A stretch of DNA of 64,000 nucleotides from Chrysophaeum taylorii (lineage: Eukaryota > Sar > Pelagophyceae > Pelagomonadales > Pelagomonadaceae): the NCBI GenBank assembly GCA_029834535.1, contig JAQMWT010000309.1:62001-126000 (forward strand). The letters are read 5' to 3'. Position 1 is the first letter of the stretch. Each line of letters starts with the position of its first letter. Of the stretch, positions 25,510-58,281 are shown piece after piece. The notes beneath the pieces are model-generated. The model worked only from the letters and a program-made list of their open reading frames with translations. It was not told where the DNA came from and did not search any database. Position numbers and translations under genes: made by a program.

Positions 25510-26665
25510 ATGGAGAAGTGCGAGGAGTCGGTCGAGAAGCACGTGAAGCGAAGGTTCGAGATGTGCCAGAAGCTCGGGAAGGGGGCGTACGGAATCGTGT
25601 GGAAGGCCGTCGAACGCAAGACGCAGAAAACCGTCGCTCTGAAAAAGTGCTTCGATGCTTTTCGGAATGCAACCGACGCACAGCGAACGTTTCGGGAAAT
25701 CATGTATCTCCAGAAGCTCTCCGGCCACGAGAACATCATCAGGCTCCAGCACATGATCAAAGCCGAAAACGATCGCGATATTTACTTGACGTTTGACTTT
25801 ATGGAGACAGACCTTCACGCCGTGATACGAGCGTGAAACAACCACCCCCCCATCAGCGTCGTCGTCGTCTTTCCTTTCCTTTCCTTTCCTTGAAAAAAAA
25901 GCGCAATAAACCAAACGTAGGTCGATTCTCGAGGAAGTGCACAAAAAATACATTATTTACCAACTTCTGAAAGCCCTCAAGTACATGCATTCGGGCGAAC
26001 TCGTGCACCGCGACATAAAACCGTCCAACCTTCTCCTGAATTCCGATTGCCACGTCCGCGTCTGCGACTTTGGACTGTGTCGCAGCGTCAGGGTAGAAGC
26101 GAAGGAAACGGCGCCCGCTTTAACCGACTACGTTGCGACGAGATGGTATCGCGCACCGGAAATCTTGCTCGGGTCGCCGACGTACACGAAGGGCGTCGAT
26201 ATGTGGGCCGTCGGCTGTATTTTGGGCGAGATGCTTTTCGGAAAACCGGTCTTTCCCGGGACATCGACCGTCAATCAACTTGAAAAAGTTATCGAATTCA
26301 CTGGCATGCCGGCGCCGGAGGACATTGCGGCGGTGGGATCGCCCTACGCGTCGACCATGTTGGAGTCGATTGGCGCGGTGCCGAAAAAAAATCTCCAAGA
26401 AGCAGCGCCACCCCTGCTTCCGGCGACGCTTCTCTTTAACCCGCACGATCGAAAATCGGCGGCATCAGCTCTCGACGATCCTTACGTCTCCGACTTTAGA
26501 AGCACCGAAGACGAGCCCGAATATCCCGACGGACAAATTTCGATTCCCGTCGACGACAACACCAAACTTTCCGCAACCGACTACCGCGACGCCCTCTACG
26601 CCCACATCGTAGCCCTCAAAAAAGAACGTGGGCGCTCCAACTCCGCCGCCCCAGCCCCCTCCTGA
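25510..26665 (+). CDS. MAPK15: MAPK15 (ERK7/8)-like protein kinase
   Basis: Two exons (25510-25832 and 25921-26665) give 355 residues. The glycine loop is GKGAYG (23-28), the ATP lysine K45 (VALKK), the catalytic loop [12 protein letters not shown] (137-148), then DFG (157-159), the activation motif T176-D177-Y178 and [10 protein letters not shown]. The block [20 protein letters not shown], the long match around [20 protein letters not shown], and [20 protein letters not shown] are diagnostic of MAPK15 rather than ERK1/2. Human MAPK15 has TEY, whereas this protein has TDY. It also lacks the long C-terminal tail of the animal protein. MAPK15 phosphorylates itself and works in cilium formation and autophagy. 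The start [16 protein letters not shown] fits the family N-terminus. Confidence 0.9.
25833..25920 (+). other. Intron of the MAPK15-like gene
   Basis: 88 bp, GTGAAA..CGTAG, with a (CTTTC)n pyrimidine tract. Splicing splits an Ala codon and gives [16 protein letters not shown], colinear with the family. Without splicing, the frame stops at 25834. Confidence 0.85.
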
Positions 26666-46880: not shown

Positions 46881-47990
46881 CGACGACCTGTGAGACAGGG
46901 AAAGGTCCGGACGGCTACGGTAAAGAACGCCGAGACTGGGCCTGCCGTGTGGTCGCCAACTAGAAGAGGTCTTGTAGAAGAGCCACTACTCGTGCCTTCT
47001 CGGACAGCAGCCCAAGAGGAAGGATCCATGGCGGATCATCAAACTCGCCAAAATAGGGTCGCGGCATCGGAGGTTAAGGCCAACAAGGTGCGGTGTCGTC
47101 GGCTGGAGGAGCATCTGCACACGCTCGAGGCACCCCTCGCTTCCCGGCGATGTGCGCGCACTTCTCCAGCAGACGAGACGATCGCTCGGGGTAGTTCGCG
47201 ACGCGGCGAGCCTGGTTTCGTCAGGACCAGACGGTCTCGCACGCGGCGCCTTCCTGGGGACCAACAAGACTTGACGTCAACGAGCATCTCAGCTTGCGCG
47301 TCTCGGCCCTCCACCTCTAGATCAGAGTCGAGACGCCGCGCAGTCCGAGGGATGTCGCGAGCGCAGCCCTTCTACTTTGACATCGTTTTCCGCATCGCGT
47401 CGCGGGGATTCGCTCGATGTTGTTTTGGGATGCCAAACCAACTCCCGTGCCCGAGAGGCCGCGGCTGATAGGATATTTTGATTGTGCCAAGAAAATGAAA
47501 CCAACAGAAACGCAGCGCGTGACGCGGGCGCGATTGCTCGTCAACCTCGCCCGGGACGGCACGGCAGACCAAGCGAAAGAGGCGGTGGCGAAGTCGTTGT
47601 TGGCACTTGCCTTAACACAACGACGAAAACCAAATCGCGATCGCGAGGGCGGGCGCGATTATTCCGGTGCTCGTCAAACTCGCAAAGAAAGGGATCGAAC
47701 GCGCGGAAGTGCAGGCGGCGGGGGGGGGGGGGGTTGTTAAATCTCTCCTCCAAGAACGCCGAAAACAAAATTTTGATAGCGAACGCGGGCGCGATTATTC
47801 CGGTGCTCGTCGAACTCGCGGACGGATTCCGGTGCTCGTCGAACTCGCGGACGACGCGACAAGAGAGGATGGGGCTTTGTGGAATCTCGCCGTCGACGTC
47901 CAAAACCGAATCGCGATCGCAAAGGCGGGGTGCCCGGAGGATTCACCCATTTTCCCTTTCACACTAAAACACGTCACTTTCAAGTCGCTG
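46881..47990 (+). pseudogene. Decayed kinase-less paralogue of the 4HB-kinase-ARM gene
   Basis: Nucleotide-level homologue of 50583-55125. 47029-47300 matches its N-terminal helical domain (ASEVKANKVRCRRL, LHTLEAPLA). Sequence equivalent to the end of that domain (about 47300) then joins directly to the equivalent of the post-kinase linker (47345-47470, FYFDIVFRIASRG). The whole kinase (about 1.2 kb) is missing. Two to three armadillo units follow (about 47500-47950, ENKILIANAGAIIPVLVELA) in broken frames, with a poly-G run at 47719-47730. Several frameshifts and stops make it non-functional. It lies 2.6 kb upstream of the intact gene in the same orientation, as after a tandem duplication. 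Confidence 0.75.
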
Positions 47991-50582: not shown

Positions 50583-53500
50583 ATGGCGGACATCGTGGCG
50601 ACGATCATCAACCTCGTCCAAACGGGTTACGGCAACGCGTCGGAGGTCAAGGCAAACAAGGTGCGGTGTCGTCGGCTGGGCGAGCGTCTGCGCGCGCTCG
50701 AGGGCCCCCTCGCTCGCCTCGTCCGCGATGGCGTCGTCGAAGTAACCGGCGATGAGCGCGCACTTCTCCAGCAGACGCTCGGGGTGGTTCGCGACGCGAT
50801 GAGCCTGATCGAGAAGTTTCGTCAGACCAGATGGTACGGCCGCGCGTACGGCGCCGTCTTGGGAAACCACAAGACCGAGTTCGAGGACGTCAACGAGCGG
50901 CTCCGCGCGTGCGTCGAGGGCCTCCACCTCGAGATCAGCGCCGAGACGATGTTTGCCGCGCGCGACGATGACAAGGACGACTTGCTTGAGGACCTCAAGC
51001 AGAACCACGTCCTCCTCGAAGCCATGTTGGCCGAGCAGGGTCGTTCGAGCGCAGACGTCGCGGCGATACGAAAAGAGCTGAGCGCGGTCGACGCGCAGCT
51101 GCAGCACCTGGGCGAGCATTTGGTTTCGGCCGTCAAGGCTGTTTTCGAGAAGGGTCAGGCCGCAATGGTCGAGAGGCTGGAGACTATCGAGGCGCTGCTC
51201 GCGGCATCATCTCGTCGTCGACCGCCGAGTTCTAAAAAAGTGATGTTGCGCGAGATCAAGCAGAGCGAGATTCTCGAGACTGACGAGATCCTCGGCACGG
51301 GGGCGTTTGGCGAGGTCCGCGCTGCGACCTGGGGCGCGTGCCAAGTGGCTCTGAAGAGGATCGTAGTCGACTCGGCTCAAGCACGCGACGAGCTGCTGAA
51401 GGAAGCGATGGTGTACCAATCCCTGATCCACCCAAACGTGCTCGCGTATTACGGCTTCTGTTTGGAGAACAACTGCTTGGTCATGGAACGCGCGTTCGGC
51501 GGCAGTCTCTACGAAAGGATTCACGTGTCAAAGGCCGAGCTCCCGCTCGCTCTCGTCGTCGCGTACGCGAGCGATATCGTCGAGGGTCTCGCCTTCCTGC
51601 ACAGCCGCGGCGCGTACCATCGGGATCTCAAGTCACCAAACCTGCTGATATGCGGCGGCGGCAACCTCAAGCTCGCCGATTTTGGCATCGCCACAACGGC
51701 ATCGCGTGCGAGCACAATGTCCAAAAGGCGCGGAACCTGCCAATGGATGGCACCAGAGTGAGAGCGTTCTTCCGCGCGAATTGATCGCAACTCTCTTTGT
51801 GCGCAGAATCCTCAAGCGCGACGACTCGAGGAAGCCGCGGTGGGGGCAAGGCGACCTGTTCGCGCTCGGCATGGTGTTGTACGAGTTGTGCACCCATTCG
51901 CTTCCTTGGGATGGGTACGACGAGTTCCAGATTATGATGGCGGTCGTCTTTGAAAAGCGACGTCCTTTAATCCAGGATTCCGAGCGCGCTGCGCTTCCCG
52001 ACTTGGTCGAGCTCACAGAAAAGTTGTGGGTGCACGACCCGGACGCGCGCCCGACTCTCGCGGACGGTTCGGTGCAACGACGACTCGCGACGACCCTCGA
52101 AGCGCTCGGCGGCGACCCGCGAAAGTTCGACGTTGTCCTCCGCAGCGCTGCGGCTGCGCACTCTGGACAGCCGAGGGTTGTCACGCGAGACACAAGTGTG
52201 CTGGATTACTTCACTTCTACTTTGGCATCGTTTTCCTCATTGCTTCGCGGTTATTCCATCGACATCGCCGTTCGATGTTTCACTTCGACTATGACATGGT
52301 TATTGGCATTTGTTCGCAGGGACTCGATCGACGTCGCCGTTTCGGATTTGGGCTGTCGAACCAATCCCCGCGCCCGAGAGGCCGCGGCTGATATGGTTCT
52401 TCGATTATGCCGAAAAGATGAAACCAATAGAATAGCGTTGCGGGACGCGGGTGCGATTCCGTTGCTCGTCAACCTCGCGCTCGACGACACGGACCGAGCG
52501 AAAGAAGCGGCGGCGGCGGCGTTGCAGGATCTGGCCTTCGAAAACGACGAAAACAAAACTGCGATCGCGAAGGCGAGCGCGATTCCGGTGCTCGTCGAAC
52601 TCGCAAAGGATGGGAACGAGGCGGCGAAAAGGAAAGCGGCGGCGGCGTTGTCGAATCTCGCGGTCAACGCCAAAAACCAAATCGCGATCGCGAAGGCGGG
52701 TGCGATTCCGGTGCTCGTCGAACTCGCAAAGGATGGGAACGAGGCGGCGAAAAGGAAAGCGGCGGCGGCGTTGTCGAATCTCGCGGTCAACGCCGAAAAC
52801 GAAATCGCGATCGCGAAGGCGGGCGCAATTCCGGTGCTCGTCGAACTCGCAAAGGATGGGAACGATGCGTCGAGAGAGAAAGCGGCGAGGGCGTTGCGGA
52901 ATCTCGCTGTCAACGCCGAAAACAAAATTGCGATCGCGGAGGCGGGCGCGATTCCGGTGCTCGTCAAACTCGCAAAGGATGGGAACATTGTGGCGAGAGG
53001 GAATGCGGCGAGGGCTTTGTGGAGTCTCTCCGTCAACGACGAAAACAAAATTTTGATCGCGAAGGCGGGCGCGATTCCGGTGCTCGTCGAACTCGCAAAG
53101 GATGGGAACGAGGCGGCGAAAAAGAATGCGGCGGGGGCGTTGGGGAATCTCGCGGTCAACGCCAAAAACGAAATCGCGATCGCGAAGGCGGGCGCGATTC
53201 CGGTGCTCGTCGAACTCGCAAAGGATGGGAACATTGTGGCGAGAGAGAAAGCGGCGAGGGCTTTGTGGAGTCTCTCCGTCAACGCCGAAAACAGAATTTT
53301 GATAGCGAAGGCGGGCGCGATTCCGGTTCTCACCGAACTCGCAAAGGATGGGAACGATGCGGCGAAAGAGAAAGCGGCGGGGGCGTTGTGGAATCTCGCG
53401 GTCAACGCCGAAAACAAAATCGCGATCGCGAAGGCGGGCGCAATTCCGGTGCTCGTCGAACTCGCAAAGGATGGGAACGAAGGGGCGAAAAAGAAAGCGG

Positions 53501-55125
53501 CGGGGGCGTTGTGGAATCTCGCCGTCAACGCCGAAAACAGAATTTTGATAGCGAAGGCGGGCGCGATTCCGGTTCTCGTCGAACTCGCAAAGGATGGGAA
53601 CGATGCGGCGAAAAAGAATGCGGCGGGGGCGTTGGGGAATCTCGCGGTCAACGCCAAAAACGAAATCGCGATCGCGAAGGCGGGCGCGATTCCGGTGCTC
53701 GTCGAACTCGCAAAGGATGGGAACGAAGGGGCGAAAAAGAAAGCGGCGGGGGCGTTGGGGAATCTCGCGGTTAACGACGAAAACAAAATTTTGATCGCGA
53801 AGGCGGGCGCGATTCCGGTTCTCGTCGAACTCGCAAAGGATGGGAACGAGGCGGCGAAAAAGAATGCGGCGGGGGCGTTGGGGAATCTCGCCGTCAACGC
53901 CAAAAACGAAATCGCGATCGCGAAGGCGGGCGCGATTCCGGTGCTCGTCGAACTCGCAAAGGATGGGAACGAGGCGGCGAAAAAGAATGCGGCGGGGGCG
54001 TTGGGGAATCTCGCTGTCAACGCCGAAAACAAAATTGCGATCGCGGAGGCGGGCGCGATTCCGGTGCTCGTCAAACTCGCAAAGGATGGGAACATTGTGG
54101 CGAGAGGGAATGCGGCGAGGGCTTTGTGGAGTCTCTCCGTCAACGACGAAAACAAAATTTTGATCGCGAAGGCGGGCGCGATTCCGGTGCTCGTCGAACT
54201 CGCAAAGGATGGGAACGAGGCGGCGAAAAAGAATGCGGCGGGGGCGTTGGGGAATCTCGCCGTCAACGCCGAAAACAGAATTTTGATAGCGAAGGCAGGC
54301 GCGATTCCGGTTCTCACCGAACTCGCAAAGGATGGGAACGAAGGGGCGAAAAAGAAAGCGGCGGGGGCGTTGTGGAATCTCGCCGTCAACGCCGAAAACA
54401 GAATTTTGATAGCGAAGGCGGGCGCGATTCCGGTTCTCACCGAACTCGCAAAGGATGGGAACGAGGCGGCGAAAAAGAATGCGGCGGGGGCGTTGGGGAA
54501 TCTCGCGGTCAACGCCAAAAACGAAATCGCGATCGCGAAGGCGGGCGCGATTCCGGTGCTCGTCGAACTCGCAAAGGATGGGAACATTGTGGCGAGAGAG
54601 AAAGCGGCGGGGGCGTTGTGGAATCTCGCCGTCAACGCCGAAAACAGAATTTTGATAGCGAAGGCGGGCGCGATTCCGGTTCTCACCGAACTCGCAAAGG
54701 ATGGGAACGAAGGGGCGAAAAAGAAAGCGGCGGGGGCGTTGTGGAATCTCGCGGTTAACGACGAAAACAAAATTTTGATCGCGAAGGCGGGCGCGATTCC
54801 GGTTCTCGTCGAACTCGCAAAGGATGGGAACGAGGCGGCGAAAGAGAAAGCGGCGGGGGCGTTGTCGAATCTCGCCGTCAACGCCAAAAACGAAATCGCG
54901 ATCGCGAAGGCGGGCGCGATTCCGGTGCTCGTCGAACTCGCAAAGGATGGGAACGAGGCGGCGAGAGAGAATGCGGCGGGGGCGTTGTGGAATCTTGCCT
55001 TCTACAGAGGCAACATAAGAGCAATTCAGGAGGCAGGTGCTGTCAAAGCCCTCGAGGAGATCATGAGGTCAGGGAGCGATCGTGCGAAAGGAAACGCCAC
55101 TCGAGCCCTCGCCTTACTACGCTAA
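50583..55125 (+). CDS. MLKL-like 4-helix / TKL kinase / armadillo-repeat protein
   Basis: Two exons (50583-51757, 51807-55125), 1497 residues. Residues 1-160 are helical (EVKANKVRCRRLGERLRALE, KFRQTRWYGRAYGAVLGNHK, FEDVNERLRACVEGLHLEIS). The pattern fits the MLKL_NTD/HeLo-like four-helix superfamily, which in animals, plants and fungi permeabilises membranes in cell death. A coil and a Ser/Arg hinge follow. The kinase (about 230-500) has LGTGAFGEV, VALKRI, HRDLKSPNLL, DFG and GTCQWMAPE, all catalytic residues present, TKL/Raf-like. A linker (about 500-590) precedes 22 armadillo repeats to the C-terminus. An immune or stress death-sensor role is inference. A decayed kinase-less relative lies upstream. 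The start ATG gives MADIVATIINL; codons further upstream are non-ATG. Confidence 0.8.
51758..51806 (+). other. Intron of the 4HB-kinase-ARM gene
   Basis: 49 bp, GTGAGA..TGCGCAG. Splicing gives WMAPE-ILKRDD, the normal kinase subdomain VIII sequence. Unspliced, the frame stops at 51759. Confidence 0.85.
52417..55125 (+). repeat. Array of 22 armadillo repeats, 123-bp period
   Basis: Units of 41 residues (consensus NKIAIAKAGAIPVLVELAKD, then GNEAAKKNAAGALGNLAVNAE). The first and last two units are diverged; about 20 central units are near-identical at DNA level. Variation is concentrated at a few positions: residues 2-4, the V/T-E/K pair after VL, the dipeptide after DGN (EA, DA, EG, IV), and the residue before NL (G, W, S, R). 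A two-unit block (from NKIAIAEAGAIPVLVKLAK) recurs exactly nine units later, indicating segmental duplication inside the array. Confidence 0.95.
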
Positions 55126-55545: not shown

Positions 55546-58281
55546 ATGGCTGATACGTCGCGATGGGAGTTTAGGGCGCGGGACTACGTCCGCGAGTCGG
55601 CGGAGGTCGCCGTGGCGCGGGTGGGGAGCAAGACGCATCCCTTGGCTGGGACGAAGCGGGGTGAGGAGACGAGGAGAGCAGACGATCCGCTGATGAGTGC
55701 GGACGATCCGTTGAGTGTCATCGGCGGCGAAAGCGGCTCTGGAAGCGGCGGGTCTGGCGCGCATCCCATCGAGGCCCCCGCAGTACCTTCGTCGTCGTCG
55801 TGGGGTCTGAAGAAGCAGACGATGGTGCGCGAGTACTTGGCGTCGGGGTGCGCGGCGCGGGCGCTGGTGCTGGTGAAGGAGATCAGGTCGAGCAAGGCGT
55901 CGAGCAGCTTTGGCGGCGGCGACGACGGGTTCGAGATGCTCGAGTCCTCGCAGCTCGTGGAGCGGTCGGCCGCGCGGCTGCAGCAGCTGGAGCGCGGCGG
56001 CGGTGAAAAAAAGTCCGAGTCCGAGTCGGAGTCAATCGCGAGGTTGGCCGCGCTCCACTCGGCGATGATCAGGCACTGGGCGAACGACGAGCGCGTCGCG
56101 GCTCTGAAGGTTGCGATTCAGGCCGCCAAAACCCTGGGCGAGAGCAATAAGGTGGAGGAGTTTTACCCCGCTCTCTTTGCCGTCGCGACGGAGATACTGG
56201 ACAACTTCGGGAGGCTCGTGTACGCGAGGATCGCGAAGAAGGAGGAAGTAAATCCCGTCGAAGCCAAGGAGACGTGCAGGAACTGGTTTTACAAAACCGC
56301 GTGCATTCGCGAGCTGGTGCCGCGGTTTTATGTGGAGGCGGCGATCGTGCGGTGCTACGCGTTTTTGAGCGCGGACTTCCCCCAGGTTTTGTCGCGGCTC
56401 GCGTCGATCGCGAGGGGCGTAGGTTCGCCGCTGCGCGCGGCTTACGCGCGAGCCTACCTCGCCCTCAACGCCCCCGTCCGCGGAAAGTTCGCCGCGACCA
56501 TCGTCCACGACACGCTCTTTCAGTTCAGGGGGGTGTTGAAGCTCGAGACCCCTTTGAAGCTGCTGGAGCCCGCGCTCGAGATGATCTTGGGATCGCCGGC
56601 CGACGTCGATTTGGGCGAGGTGCTCGCGCAGTACCGAGACTACTGCAACGACGCGACGGTTCTGAAACACATTATCGAAGCGTTTAGTCATGAAGACGTG
56701 GCGTCGCGCGCGGCGGCGATTGTCGCGCTCGCGAAGCGCGCCGAGCCGTCGACGACGTCGACGGTCGACCTTCTGGGGCGTTTGGGCAGGAAATTCGCCG
56801 GAGCGCCGCCGCCGAAAGACCAGCGCCTCGCAATCCTCAACGAGGTGTGGAAGGTCGTGACGCGGTGTAATGATGTGGGCGACTACGTGACCTGTGCGAC
56901 CCACTGGCTCGACTGCCTCCTCAAACACTACTCGGACCGGGAGGTGAGGGTGCTGCTGGGCGACGTGATTTCGCACGTCCAAGTCGCGACGACGACGACG
57001 ACGCCAAACCTCGAGGATCTCGTCCAGATGCTTATCCAGTCCAAGCAGATGCTGGCCTCGGACCACCTCCTCAAGCTTTTGGACGTGTTCCGCCCGCACC
57101 GCAAAGTCGAAATCGCAAAAGAAGTGCTCGCGTCCTCGTCGAAGAGGCGCGCGTCGTCGTCCGACCCCGCGACGATCCACGCTATGCTGGAAATCGCGCG
57201 CGTCGCGCACGACGCGCTCGACAGCCTCTCCCCCCCCGGCGAGCGCCGCCACGTGGCGTCGTTGGTGGTGTCTTTCGTCGAATCCGTGGACATGGGGCGC
57301 GACCTCGAGCGCCAGCTCGGGGTTTACGTCGAATGTCGCGCCGCGTTCCCGAATCTCGACCTCGTTCTCGACCGGTTGGTGTTGCTTGCTGCAAACCTCG
57401 CGATGACCTCCAAGAGAGTCGCGACGCGGGCGCTCCGGAAATCAGCAGACAACAAGAGCCTCGCGGAACGAGCGCAGCATTTCTCTAAAGCGTGTCTCGC
57501 GTTCGCTCACGTCACGATACCGTCCGTCGAGTCGGGGTTTCGTAAGTTAGAACTGCTCTCGCTCTGCGGCCACGTCGCGCTCCTCAACAACTGCCTGCCG
57601 CACGCGGACACCTTTTTCAAGGCCGCGGTGGCGTTGGTGCCTGATCTTCCGGAGGGCGACGACCGCCTCTCGGGGTTCGTCGCGACCTTCTCGTCCTCTT
57701 TAGTTTTAGTTCCGGGACACCCCGACCGCGGTCCGTTCTACCTCGTCCAGGGTCTGCTCAACGCGCTCCCCCGGTACGCCCACTGGAAAACGCGACAATG
57801 CGACGCCTATATCCCCCTCATTCCCCTGCTCGGGGCCTACGCCCAGCGCAAGCTTCCCTACTCGGTCGTCGACGCGAACGACGTCCTCTACGGCGGTGCC
57901 CCCGACTACCTCCTCGAACTCAAAACCCACCTCTCTTCCCTCGTCTCGAACATCCTCGATCATCTCGCCTCCCTCGACCCCGCCTCCCTCAAACGCGCCG
58001 AGCTCGTCCTAGACCTCATCAACAACCTCCACCTCGTCATCAACCTCGAGGACGCCGGCGACGCCAAGGACTTCGCCCGCAAACTCCTCGCCCTCGCCAC
58101 CAAGGTCAAGCACACCTTCCCCCCGCCCCTCAAAGCCTACTTCGACCACACCCATGCCCTCCTGCACAACAACAACAACAACAACAACAACAACCACCCC
58201 CCCCAACTTGCTTCTGCTGCTTCTTCTTCTTCTTCTTCTGCTCGAGGAGCAGGTTCCTCTTCTCCTAATTATAATAAATAA
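55546..58281 (+). CDS. VPS35L: VPS35L, Retriever/Commander complex subunit
   Basis: 911 residues in a single exon. VPS35L scaffolds Retriever (with VPS26C and VPS29) within Commander, which recycles cargo from endosomes to the cell surface. The N-terminus carries the conserved WEFRARDYV and HPLAG followed by a Ser-rich DPLS linker. The body is an alpha-solenoid with family blocks NWFYKTACIRELVPRFYVEA, YLALNAPVRGKFAATIVHDT, DYVTCATHWLDCLLKHYSDR, EVRVLLGDVISHV, RDLERQLGVYVECRAAFPNL, VALLNNCLPHADTFFKAAVA and VPGHPDRGPFYLVQGLLNAL. These match VPS35L rather than retromer VPS35, which lacks the extended N-terminus. The C-terminus ends in an Asn/Ser-rich tail from a CAACAA microsatellite. The ATG follows a T-rich leader at 55546. 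Confidence 0.9.
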   Translation: MADTSRWEFRARDYVRESAEVAVARVGSKTHPLAGTKRGEETRRADDPLMSADDPLSVIGGESGSGSGGSGAHPIEAPAVPSSSSWGLKKQTMVREYLASGCAARALVLVKEIRSSKASSSFGGGDDGFEMLESSQLVERSAARLQQLERGGGEKKSESESESIARLAALHSAMIRHWANDERVAALKVAIQAAKTLGESNKVEEFYPALFAVATEILDNFGRLVYARIAKKEEVNPVEAKETCRNWFYKTACIRELVPRFYVEAAIVRCYAFLSADFPQVLSRLASIARGVGSPLRAAYARAYLALNAPVRGKFAATIVHDTLFQFRGVLKLETPLKLLEPALEMILGSPADVDLGEVLAQYRDYCNDATVLKHIIEAFSHEDVASRAAAIVALAKRAEPSTTSTVDLLGRLGRKFAGAPPPKDQRLAILNEVWKVVTRCNDVGDYVTCATHWLDCLLKHYSDREVRVLLGDVISHVQVATTTTTPNLEDLVQMLIQSKQMLASDHLLKLLDVFRPHRKVEIAKEVLASSSKRRASSSDPATIHAMLEIARVAHDALDSLSPPGERRHVASLVVSFVESVDMGRDLERQLGVYVECRAAFPNLDLVLDRLVLLAANLAMTSKRVATRALRKSADNKSLAERAQHFSKACLAFAHVTIPSVESGFRKLELLSLCGHVALLNNCLPHADTFFKAAVALVPDLPEGDDRLSGFVATFSSSLVLVPGHPDRGPFYLVQGLLNALPRYAHWKTRQCDAYIPLIPLLGAYAQRKLPYSVVDANDVLYGGAPDYLLELKTHLSSLVSNILDHLASLDPASLKRAELVLDLINNLHLVINLEDAGDAKDFARKLLALATKVKHTFPPPLKAYFDHTHALLHNNNNNNNNNHPPQLASAASSSSSSARGAGSSSPNYNK

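Follow-up and report, generated by a model that had tools for sequence, protein, structure and literature searches.

The gene at positions 50583–55125 of the window analysed here, a 64,000-nucleotide stretch of the Chrysophaeum taylorii genome (C309:62001-126000, C309 being one of the 697 contigs of the 70.8 Mb assembly that was scanned), is predicted to join an MLKL-type N-terminal domain, a TKL-type protein kinase and a long armadillo (ARM) array. C. taylorii is a photosynthetic stramenopile, a pelagophyte. We propose that the product is a candidate intracellular non-self-recognition or immune receptor that unites sensor, kinase switch and executor in a single chain, a reading to which we assign a probability of about 0.5. 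Membership of a small, fast-turning-over family forms part of this reading and is held with the same even confidence.

The three modules lie in one spliced frame, as the original prediction had claimed. The joined frame encodes 1,497 amino acids with a single terminal stop, no Met precedes the ATG at 50583 in the open frame, and Pfam identifies MLKL_N, Pkinase and Arm within it. Three annotated C. taylorii paralogs (P0002, P0003 and P0004) share the domain order and contain GT-AG introns of 43, 43 and 41 bp, respectively, at the same codon position in the Glu of MAPE as the window gene. This common intron site indicates that exons 1 and 2 belong to one gene, and not to two separate genes as the original prediction had allowed. 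An artefact, in which two genes were joined or the array was collapsed or inflated by assembly, could be argued from units that are up to 100% identical and hard to assemble, and from the window's full-length protein not being among the annotated proteins returned by our protein searches. It is nevertheless extremely improbable, given that three annotated paralogs have an intron at the same site and in the same phase, and given the lack of an internal stop in either exon, and the long-read contigs and RNA-seq-backed gene calls described for this genome in the excerpt of PMC10366177. The features of the gene are as follows.

50583..51757, plus strand: exon 1, with the MLKL_N domain, helical linker and kinase up to MAPE (spliced frame, Pfam, equal exon end in three paralogs).
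50598..50945, plus strand: MLKL_N domain, residues 6–121 (PF22215, 62.4 bits against a cut-off of 27; PDB MLKL matches).
50946..51266, plus strand: predicted helical linker, residues 122–228, at the place of the MLKL brace (low-confidence model helices 129–150 and 156–212; conservation among paralogs).
51267..52062, plus strand: TKL-type protein kinase domain, split by the intron (PF00069/PF07714 from residue 232 into exon 2).
51354..51356, plus strand: codon of the predicted catalytic Lys of VALK, residue 258 (motif).
51618..51641, plus strand: HRDLKSPN catalytic loop, residues 346–353 (motif).
51758..51806, plus strand: intron of 49 bp, GT-AG, within the Glu codon of MAPE (site common to P0002–P0004).
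51807..55125, plus strand: exon 2, with the kinase end, connector, armadillo array and stop codon (spliced frame, Pfam).
52417..55002, plus strand: armadillo array of 21 motif-bearing units (units 2–21 with mean identity of 0.81 for amino acids and 0.90 for nucleotides).
55003..55122, plus strand: degenerate C-terminal armadillo cap (sequence; Arm stretches).

Judged by profile and database matches, the N-terminal domain is an MLKL homologue and not a generic coiled coil. In Pfam, MLKL_N is matched at E 4.3e-17, and a single-sequence PDB search with the domain returned seven MLKL sequences (4btf at 7.4e-8, the rest at 6e-4 to 4e-3) and nothing besides MLKL below E 0.05. A profile of eight sequences (A7: the window protein, three paralogs, two from Aureoumbra, one from Rotaria and one further protein) recovered the same seven MLKL sequences, now with E values of 3e-18 to 2e-15; the first match behind them comes at 0.003, and the plant disease-resistance protein At5g66900 at 0.035. 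The MLKL-like character proposed for this region is thereby upheld by both the Pfam and the PDB profile searches, neither of which points to an unrelated coiled coil, whereas its description as basic is not, residues 1–120 being just slightly so (18 K+R versus 16 D+E). Within A7, MLKL_N is matched by all eight members and, more weakly, PigL_N by five and RPW8 by four; DUF7792, which we take to be the N-domain of plant ARO proteins, is matched by two (best 5.3e-6) and PUB10_N by one (0.022). The last two matches would suit a plant ARO- or PUB-like polarity or trafficking scaffold, composed of a four-helix domain and ARM repeats with a kinase between them, but the window domain itself matches MLKL_N alone in Pfam up to E 1, with no HeLo family, DUF7792 or PUB10_N, and we regard such a scaffold as very unlikely.

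Residues that matter for killing in a distant relative are largely retained in this domain. The excerpt of PMC11476962 gives ten mutants that impair killing by the rotifer protein AvMLKL-1, and eight of the ten sites are identical in the window protein by an indirect mapping through Rotaria P0020, whose residues agree with AvMLKL-1 at 11 of the 12 listed numbers. From the Thr77-Lys78 pair of that protein, Lys alone is kept. An AlphaFold model of the domain (predicted local distance difference test, pLDDT, of 55) places helices at 2–14, 19–49, 56–81 and 89–114; the model is poor, and it gave no significant fold match. The linker that follows sits where MLKL has its brace and, by position alone, may be its counterpart. 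Among the four paralogs with no stop in exon 1, the ratio of nonsynonymous to synonymous substitution rates (dN/dS) is 0.41–0.51 for the N-domain, 0.16–0.60 for the linker and 0.31–0.50 for the exon-1 part of the kinase, and all three are under moderate constraint.

The kinase looks live, as predicted from its motifs: VALK, HRDLKSPN, DFG and APE are all present, in agreement with the catalytic residues (VALK, HRD, DFG, MAPE) that the original prediction had listed, and the Pkinase match in exon 1 scores 116.1 bits. Its nearest PDB kinases are TAK1 (2.2e-29) and an EGFR chain (4.5e-29), followed by TAK1, RAF, CTR1 and MAP3K9, which suggests a TKL-type kinase. The catalytic motifs are also found in P0002, P0006 and P0007 by a motif script and in P0003, where VALK was read by eye; the script matched the wrong Lys in P0003 and P0005 and found none in P0014. 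P0004 has HRDLKSRK, with the catalytic-loop Asn replaced, P0005 has HLHLKSWN, with HLH for HRD, and P0001 is without the N-lobe motifs. The annotated P0004 (C25/C521) also has an N-terminal extension with a weak EF-hand match and is possibly a pseudokinase.

The ARM array bears what appears to be a recognition-like signature, its variation being highest at known pocket positions. The 22 repeats of the original prediction correspond to 22 Arm stretches in Pfam (633 bits) and, by motif, to 21 units and a degenerate cap; the unit spacing is 42 residues once and 41 residues 19 times, and certain units recur exactly, and unit identity reaches 100%. Seven pocket residues of the designed ARM proteins 6SA8 and 5AEI, given in the excerpt of PMC12202725, were placed on the array through the 6SA8 alignment at unit positions 27, 30, 31, 34 and 37, a mapping that was made after inspection of the data and from a list that merges the contacts of two neighbouring units; for 5AEI, a uniform shift of 7 is compatible with the hit table. 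Two further papers on designed ARM proteins (PMC10684580, PMC6838082) give no residue numbers for pockets. Two earlier position sets were dropped, one drawn from the general literature on designed ARM proteins and the other (set B) partly chosen from the window data. The counts cover units bearing the search motif, minus the first such unit of each array, leaving 20 of 21 units in the window, 10 of 11 in C565, 9 of 10 in C8 and 14 of 15 in C25. The array of C521 was omitted because 6,887 compared bases are identical to C25; this points to haplotigs left uncollapsed or to a duplication of very recent date.

In the window array, mean entropy is 1.38 bits at the five pocket positions versus 0.30 elsewhere, with permutation p values of 4e-5 over all positions, 5e-4 within positions 25–41 (taken as helix 3) and 3e-3 among the 19 polar-consensus positions, the five included. 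The nonsynonymous and synonymous differences (pN/pS) are 0.280/0.000 at the pocket and 0.077/0.121 elsewhere. The paralog arrays behave similarly, with pocket versus other entropies of 1.72 versus 0.67 in C565, 1.39 versus 0.48 in C25 and 1.00 versus 0.36 in C8 (p over all positions 5e-4, 6e-4 and 0.02, respectively) and pocket pN/pS of 0.410/0.368, 0.326/0.222 and 0.313/0.085. By these simple counts, each of the four arrays examined has a higher pN than pS at the pocket. In the window, C8 and C25, units resemble others of their own locus more than those of other loci, as expected from partial homogenisation; this does not hold for C565.

The same arrays could be seen as those of a lineage-specific repeat-kinase family with no role in defence, in which neutral variants pass from unit to unit by unequal exchange and substitutions are tolerated at the surface. 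The exact recurrence of some units, the nucleotide identity of 0.90, the modest constraint on the N-domain, the several broken-looking copies described below and variation at the non-pocket positions 2, 22, 25 and 41 of paralog arrays would all suit such a family. Against it, all 20 units of the window array are the same at positions 22–25 but differ at the pocket positions, the pocket stands out even among polar-consensus positions, and pN is above pS at the pocket throughout; we judge this explanation improbable.

MLKL_N-type domains also occur elsewhere in the genome. The scan gave 15 MLKL_N matches, 11 of them over the cut-off, and three of the 15 (one over the cut-off) head proteins with an NPHP3_N (NACHT-like) domain, two of these three being seen with WD40 arrays. 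The assignment of the other two NPHP3_N-linked domains rests on their likeness to the one that passes the cut-off and on a profile comparison, in which a profile of the three matched A7 with 97.4% probability (E 1.3e-11, 95 columns).

L044:2313-4367, L044:5728-9900 and L047:2926-7212 (C359 and C44): MLKL_N-type domain with an NPHP3_N/NACHT-like ATPase (Pfam, profile comparison).

The two WD40 arrays each have 12 counted units of 46 residues, with identities of 0.81 and 0.83. The units are most variable at positions 12, 13, 15 and 34 (also 36 in C44), around an invariant Val14 and Asp35, with less variation at positions such as 4, 7 and 27. In the allorecognition repeats of Podospora, the excerpt of PMC1805685 describes four strongly selected codons, paired around constrained ones. 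The NPHP3_N-WD40 genes with an MLKL_N-type head appear NLR-like (NOD-like receptor-like), with allorecognition-like variation resembling that of the Podospora genes, and fungi likewise place HeLo-like domains at the head of signal transduction ATPases with numerous domains (STAND proteins) (PMC4986451, PMC10197012).

The STAND repertoire of the genome comprises 12 NACHT and 13 NPHP3_N matches, all over their cut-offs at E<=1e-4, with some places in both sets. Long frames at two further loci, L045:867-9899 (C309 near 615 kb) and L048:3519-9899 (C529), hold two sets of ankyrin repeats, with a kinase and a weak NACHT match between them and a weakly MLKL_N-like region ahead of the first set; on C529 the arrangement is split over two frames. 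A single open frame at L046:660-4376 (C324) matches CHAT (just under the cut-off), MLKL_N (weakly) and a Roc GTPase. Ankyrin (ANK)/Roc-type domains (A6) were considered as relatives of MLKL_N and set aside, the likeness being weak (hhalign 56%).

Outside C. taylorii, what follows the kinase differs. Searches with a 391-residue query and with 1,031 of the 1,497 residues (region 1–225) returned just C. taylorii proteins (one and four, respectively). A further protein search scored the 7,991 candidates sharing most words, and MLKL_N was found in 12 of the best 120 of 1,550 proteins: five from C. taylorii with Arm, P0006 and P0010 with tetratricopeptide repeats (TPR), P0007 with leucine-rich repeats (LRR), and P0014, P0018, P0020 and P0051 with no repeats listed. 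P0006 (MLKL_N, kinase and TPR) and P0007 (MLKL_N, kinase and LRR) are from Aureoumbra lagunensis, which we take to be a pelagophyte. MLKL_N with kinase motifs is also present in a rotifer and other proteins. The occurrence of MLKL_N and kinase together in many proteins indicates that the pairing is widespread and that the varying part is the tail.

In a kinase tree that took in 38 unlabelled kinases from the 120 listed proteins, six C. taylorii proteins (the window protein and paralogs) group with P0006 and P0008 at 98/67, below the level that the tool marks with a star, and the C. taylorii and Aureoumbra parts within this group are each starred. P0007 was left out, as no kinase stretch of more than 180 residues passed the filter, and P0008 was labelled MLKL_N though it has no MLKL_N match. 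A single ancient MLKL_N-kinase fusion is not supported, the label needing six changes, at least two of them forced by starred branches.

These data also bear on a different and quite possible, if less probable, explanation, that the window protein is a MAP3K-like signalling kinase, with MLKL_N as an oligomerisation or lipid-docking module, the ARM repeats as scaffold or sensor, and phosphorylation of other proteins as its output; a role in stress or immunity would still be possible. The intact motifs, the presence of TAK1 and RAF among the nearest PDB kinases, and a constraint on the exon-1 kinase part about equal to that on the N-domain are consistent with it, as are the six label changes on the tree, by which MLKL_N may have paired with different kinases. 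It is also consistent with the position of the authors of the wheat Pm13 study, who leave open, in the excerpt of PMC10951266, whether the MLKL_NTD kills or senses. It accounts less readily for the eight of ten killing sites of rotifer MLKL that are kept, and for the presence of this domain type in STAND proteins of the genome whose WD40 arrays vary in an allorecognition-like manner, at the head position that fungi give to HeLo-like domains.

Under the receptor reading, the ARM array would use helix 3 of its units, where the most variable positions match pocket positions, to bind a peptide or protein. Ligand binding may cluster molecules or relieve inhibition, upon which the TKL-type kinase, given its intact motifs, would phosphorylate itself and possibly also the linker or MLKL_N. 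The released MLKL_N domain would then oligomerise and permeabilise a membrane as in animal MLKL, a step suggested by homology and by the kept residues. Ligand binding, catalysis and killing by the window protein are thus all putative activities, deduced from sequence.

Several observations weigh against this reading. The motif changes in P0004 and P0005 indicate that not all copies retain kinase activity. In the N-domain, Ile17 of AvMLKL-1 corresponds to Gly (residue 15) and Thr77 to Glu in the mapping taken from the excerpt, the kept residues may serve merely to maintain the fold, and the structure model, at its pLDDT, is uninformative on a four-helix fold. The pocket test is weak in C8 (p 0.02, 0.07 and 0.09), pocket pN/pS is just 1.1 in C565 and 1.5 in C25, window positions 5 and 26 vary strongly outside the pocket, and the non-pocket positions noted above are variable in some paralog arrays. 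ARM units are, moreover, not independent of one another, and pN/pS is no formal site test of selection. Finally, the gene copies are few for an immune repertoire.

Several copies of the family look decayed. Within the window, a tblastn search revealed a relic upstream of the gene in which no kinase match was found.

47064..47933, plus strand: decayed-looking relative with MLKL_N, connector and ARM fragments in order (tblastn within the window).

Family matches with internal stops or split frames are also found on C309 (at about 44, 145 and 150 kb), C74 and C308; some of the split frames may instead reflect introns that escaped detection. Elsewhere in the window, 25964–26233 weakly matches the kinase of the gene (29% over 94 residues) and is perhaps a piece of another kinase. 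Downstream of the gene, an open frame of 911 residues at 55546–58278 resembles Vps35 at a score below the threshold (25.9 bits, cut-off 35) and possibly encodes VPS35L of the retriever complex.

The window protein shares features with several known systems. As in animal MLKL, a homologous N-domain precedes a kinase fold, with a predicted helical linker between the two, and 9 of the 12 residues that the excerpt of PMC11476962 gives as common to rotifer and mammalian MLKL are kept; the animal protein, however, ends in a pseudokinase, whereas the window kinase keeps its catalytic motifs and is followed by a long ARM array. Also similar is wheat Pm13, in which an MLKL_NTD and linker precede a predicted active Ser/Thr kinase and which confers disease resistance with cell death. 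The excerpt of PMC10951266 describes a protein of 476 residues with no repeat array and a kinase placed in the LRR_8B subfamily, while the window protein has 22 Arm stretches after the kinase. The Aureoumbra proteins P0006 and P0007 share the N-domain (44 and 43% identity to the window) and, for P0006 together with P0008, a related kinase in the 98/67 group, in which P0007 is not placed, but have TPR or LRR instead of ARM; both are transcriptome models, and internal duplications in P0007 may be artefacts. MLKL-family proteins with repeats outside animals are also known from Glomeromycotina, where the repeats given in the excerpt of PMC8778642 are Sel1 and not ARM.

Fungal NLRs (HeLo-like or HET domains with NACHT and WD40, ANK or TPR; Podospora hnwd) are similar in combining an N-terminal effector with near-identical repeats whose variation, selected in fungi, lies at the interaction surface. 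Their switch is a NACHT or NB-ARC ATPase, whereas that of the window protein is predicted to be a kinase, with no NACHT, NB-ARC or NPHP3_N among the Pfam families matched to E 1 (lists of 7 and 24). The mean unit identity of 0.81 falls just below the high-identity criterion of >85% over 100 residues in the 2014 fungal NLR survey, in which the word 'armadillo' does not occur (PMC4986451). The LRR-ROCO and NB-ARC-TPR candidate immune receptors of brown algae (PMC11378527) differ in having a GTPase or NB-ARC switch and in diversifying by exon shuffling, the window array lying within one exon.

The idea of receptor, switch and executor on one chain, as first put forward for this gene, has gained from the pocket-focused variation, the swapped repeats of Aureoumbra and the MLKL_N-type domains on NACHT-like proteins, but a predicted live kinase joined to an MLKL_NTD is no novelty, being already in print for Pm13, and MLKL_N with kinase motifs is present in the rotifer and other proteins. 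None of the modules is new by itself; the combination and the way it has diversified appear to be, and no description of an MLKL_N-kinase core with a diversified array was found among the papers listed by our literature searches (titles and abstract starts, mostly of non-subscription papers). We tentatively suggest, at rather less than even odds, that pelagophytes possess a separate receptor class in which an active TKL kinase replaces the nucleotide switch of NLRs and an interchangeable, rapidly diversifying sensor (ARM, TPR or LRR) drives this kinase to fire the MLKL-type killer of its own chain, a killer type shared with the NACHT-like/WD40 receptors.

Animal necroptosis divides the roles of sensor, kinase and executor among RIPK1, RIPK3 and MLKL. 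If the window protein kills, it would be a one-molecule version of a cascade that is spread over several animal proteins, and one could test whether MLKL had a live kinase domain in its ancestral forms. According to the excerpt of PMC7539657, a survey of 67 protists published in 2020 reported that the regulators of mammalian necroptosis had no homologues there and considered the pathway probably restricted to vertebrates; in contrast, an N-terminal domain is recognisable here as MLKL from a single sequence in a photosynthetic stramenopile, joined to a kinase and to repeats diversified at the pocket. If true, the proposed function would extend both MLKL-type death and repeat diversification of the fungal kind to stramenopiles, and the ARM arrays would be a natural library of ARM binding surfaces.

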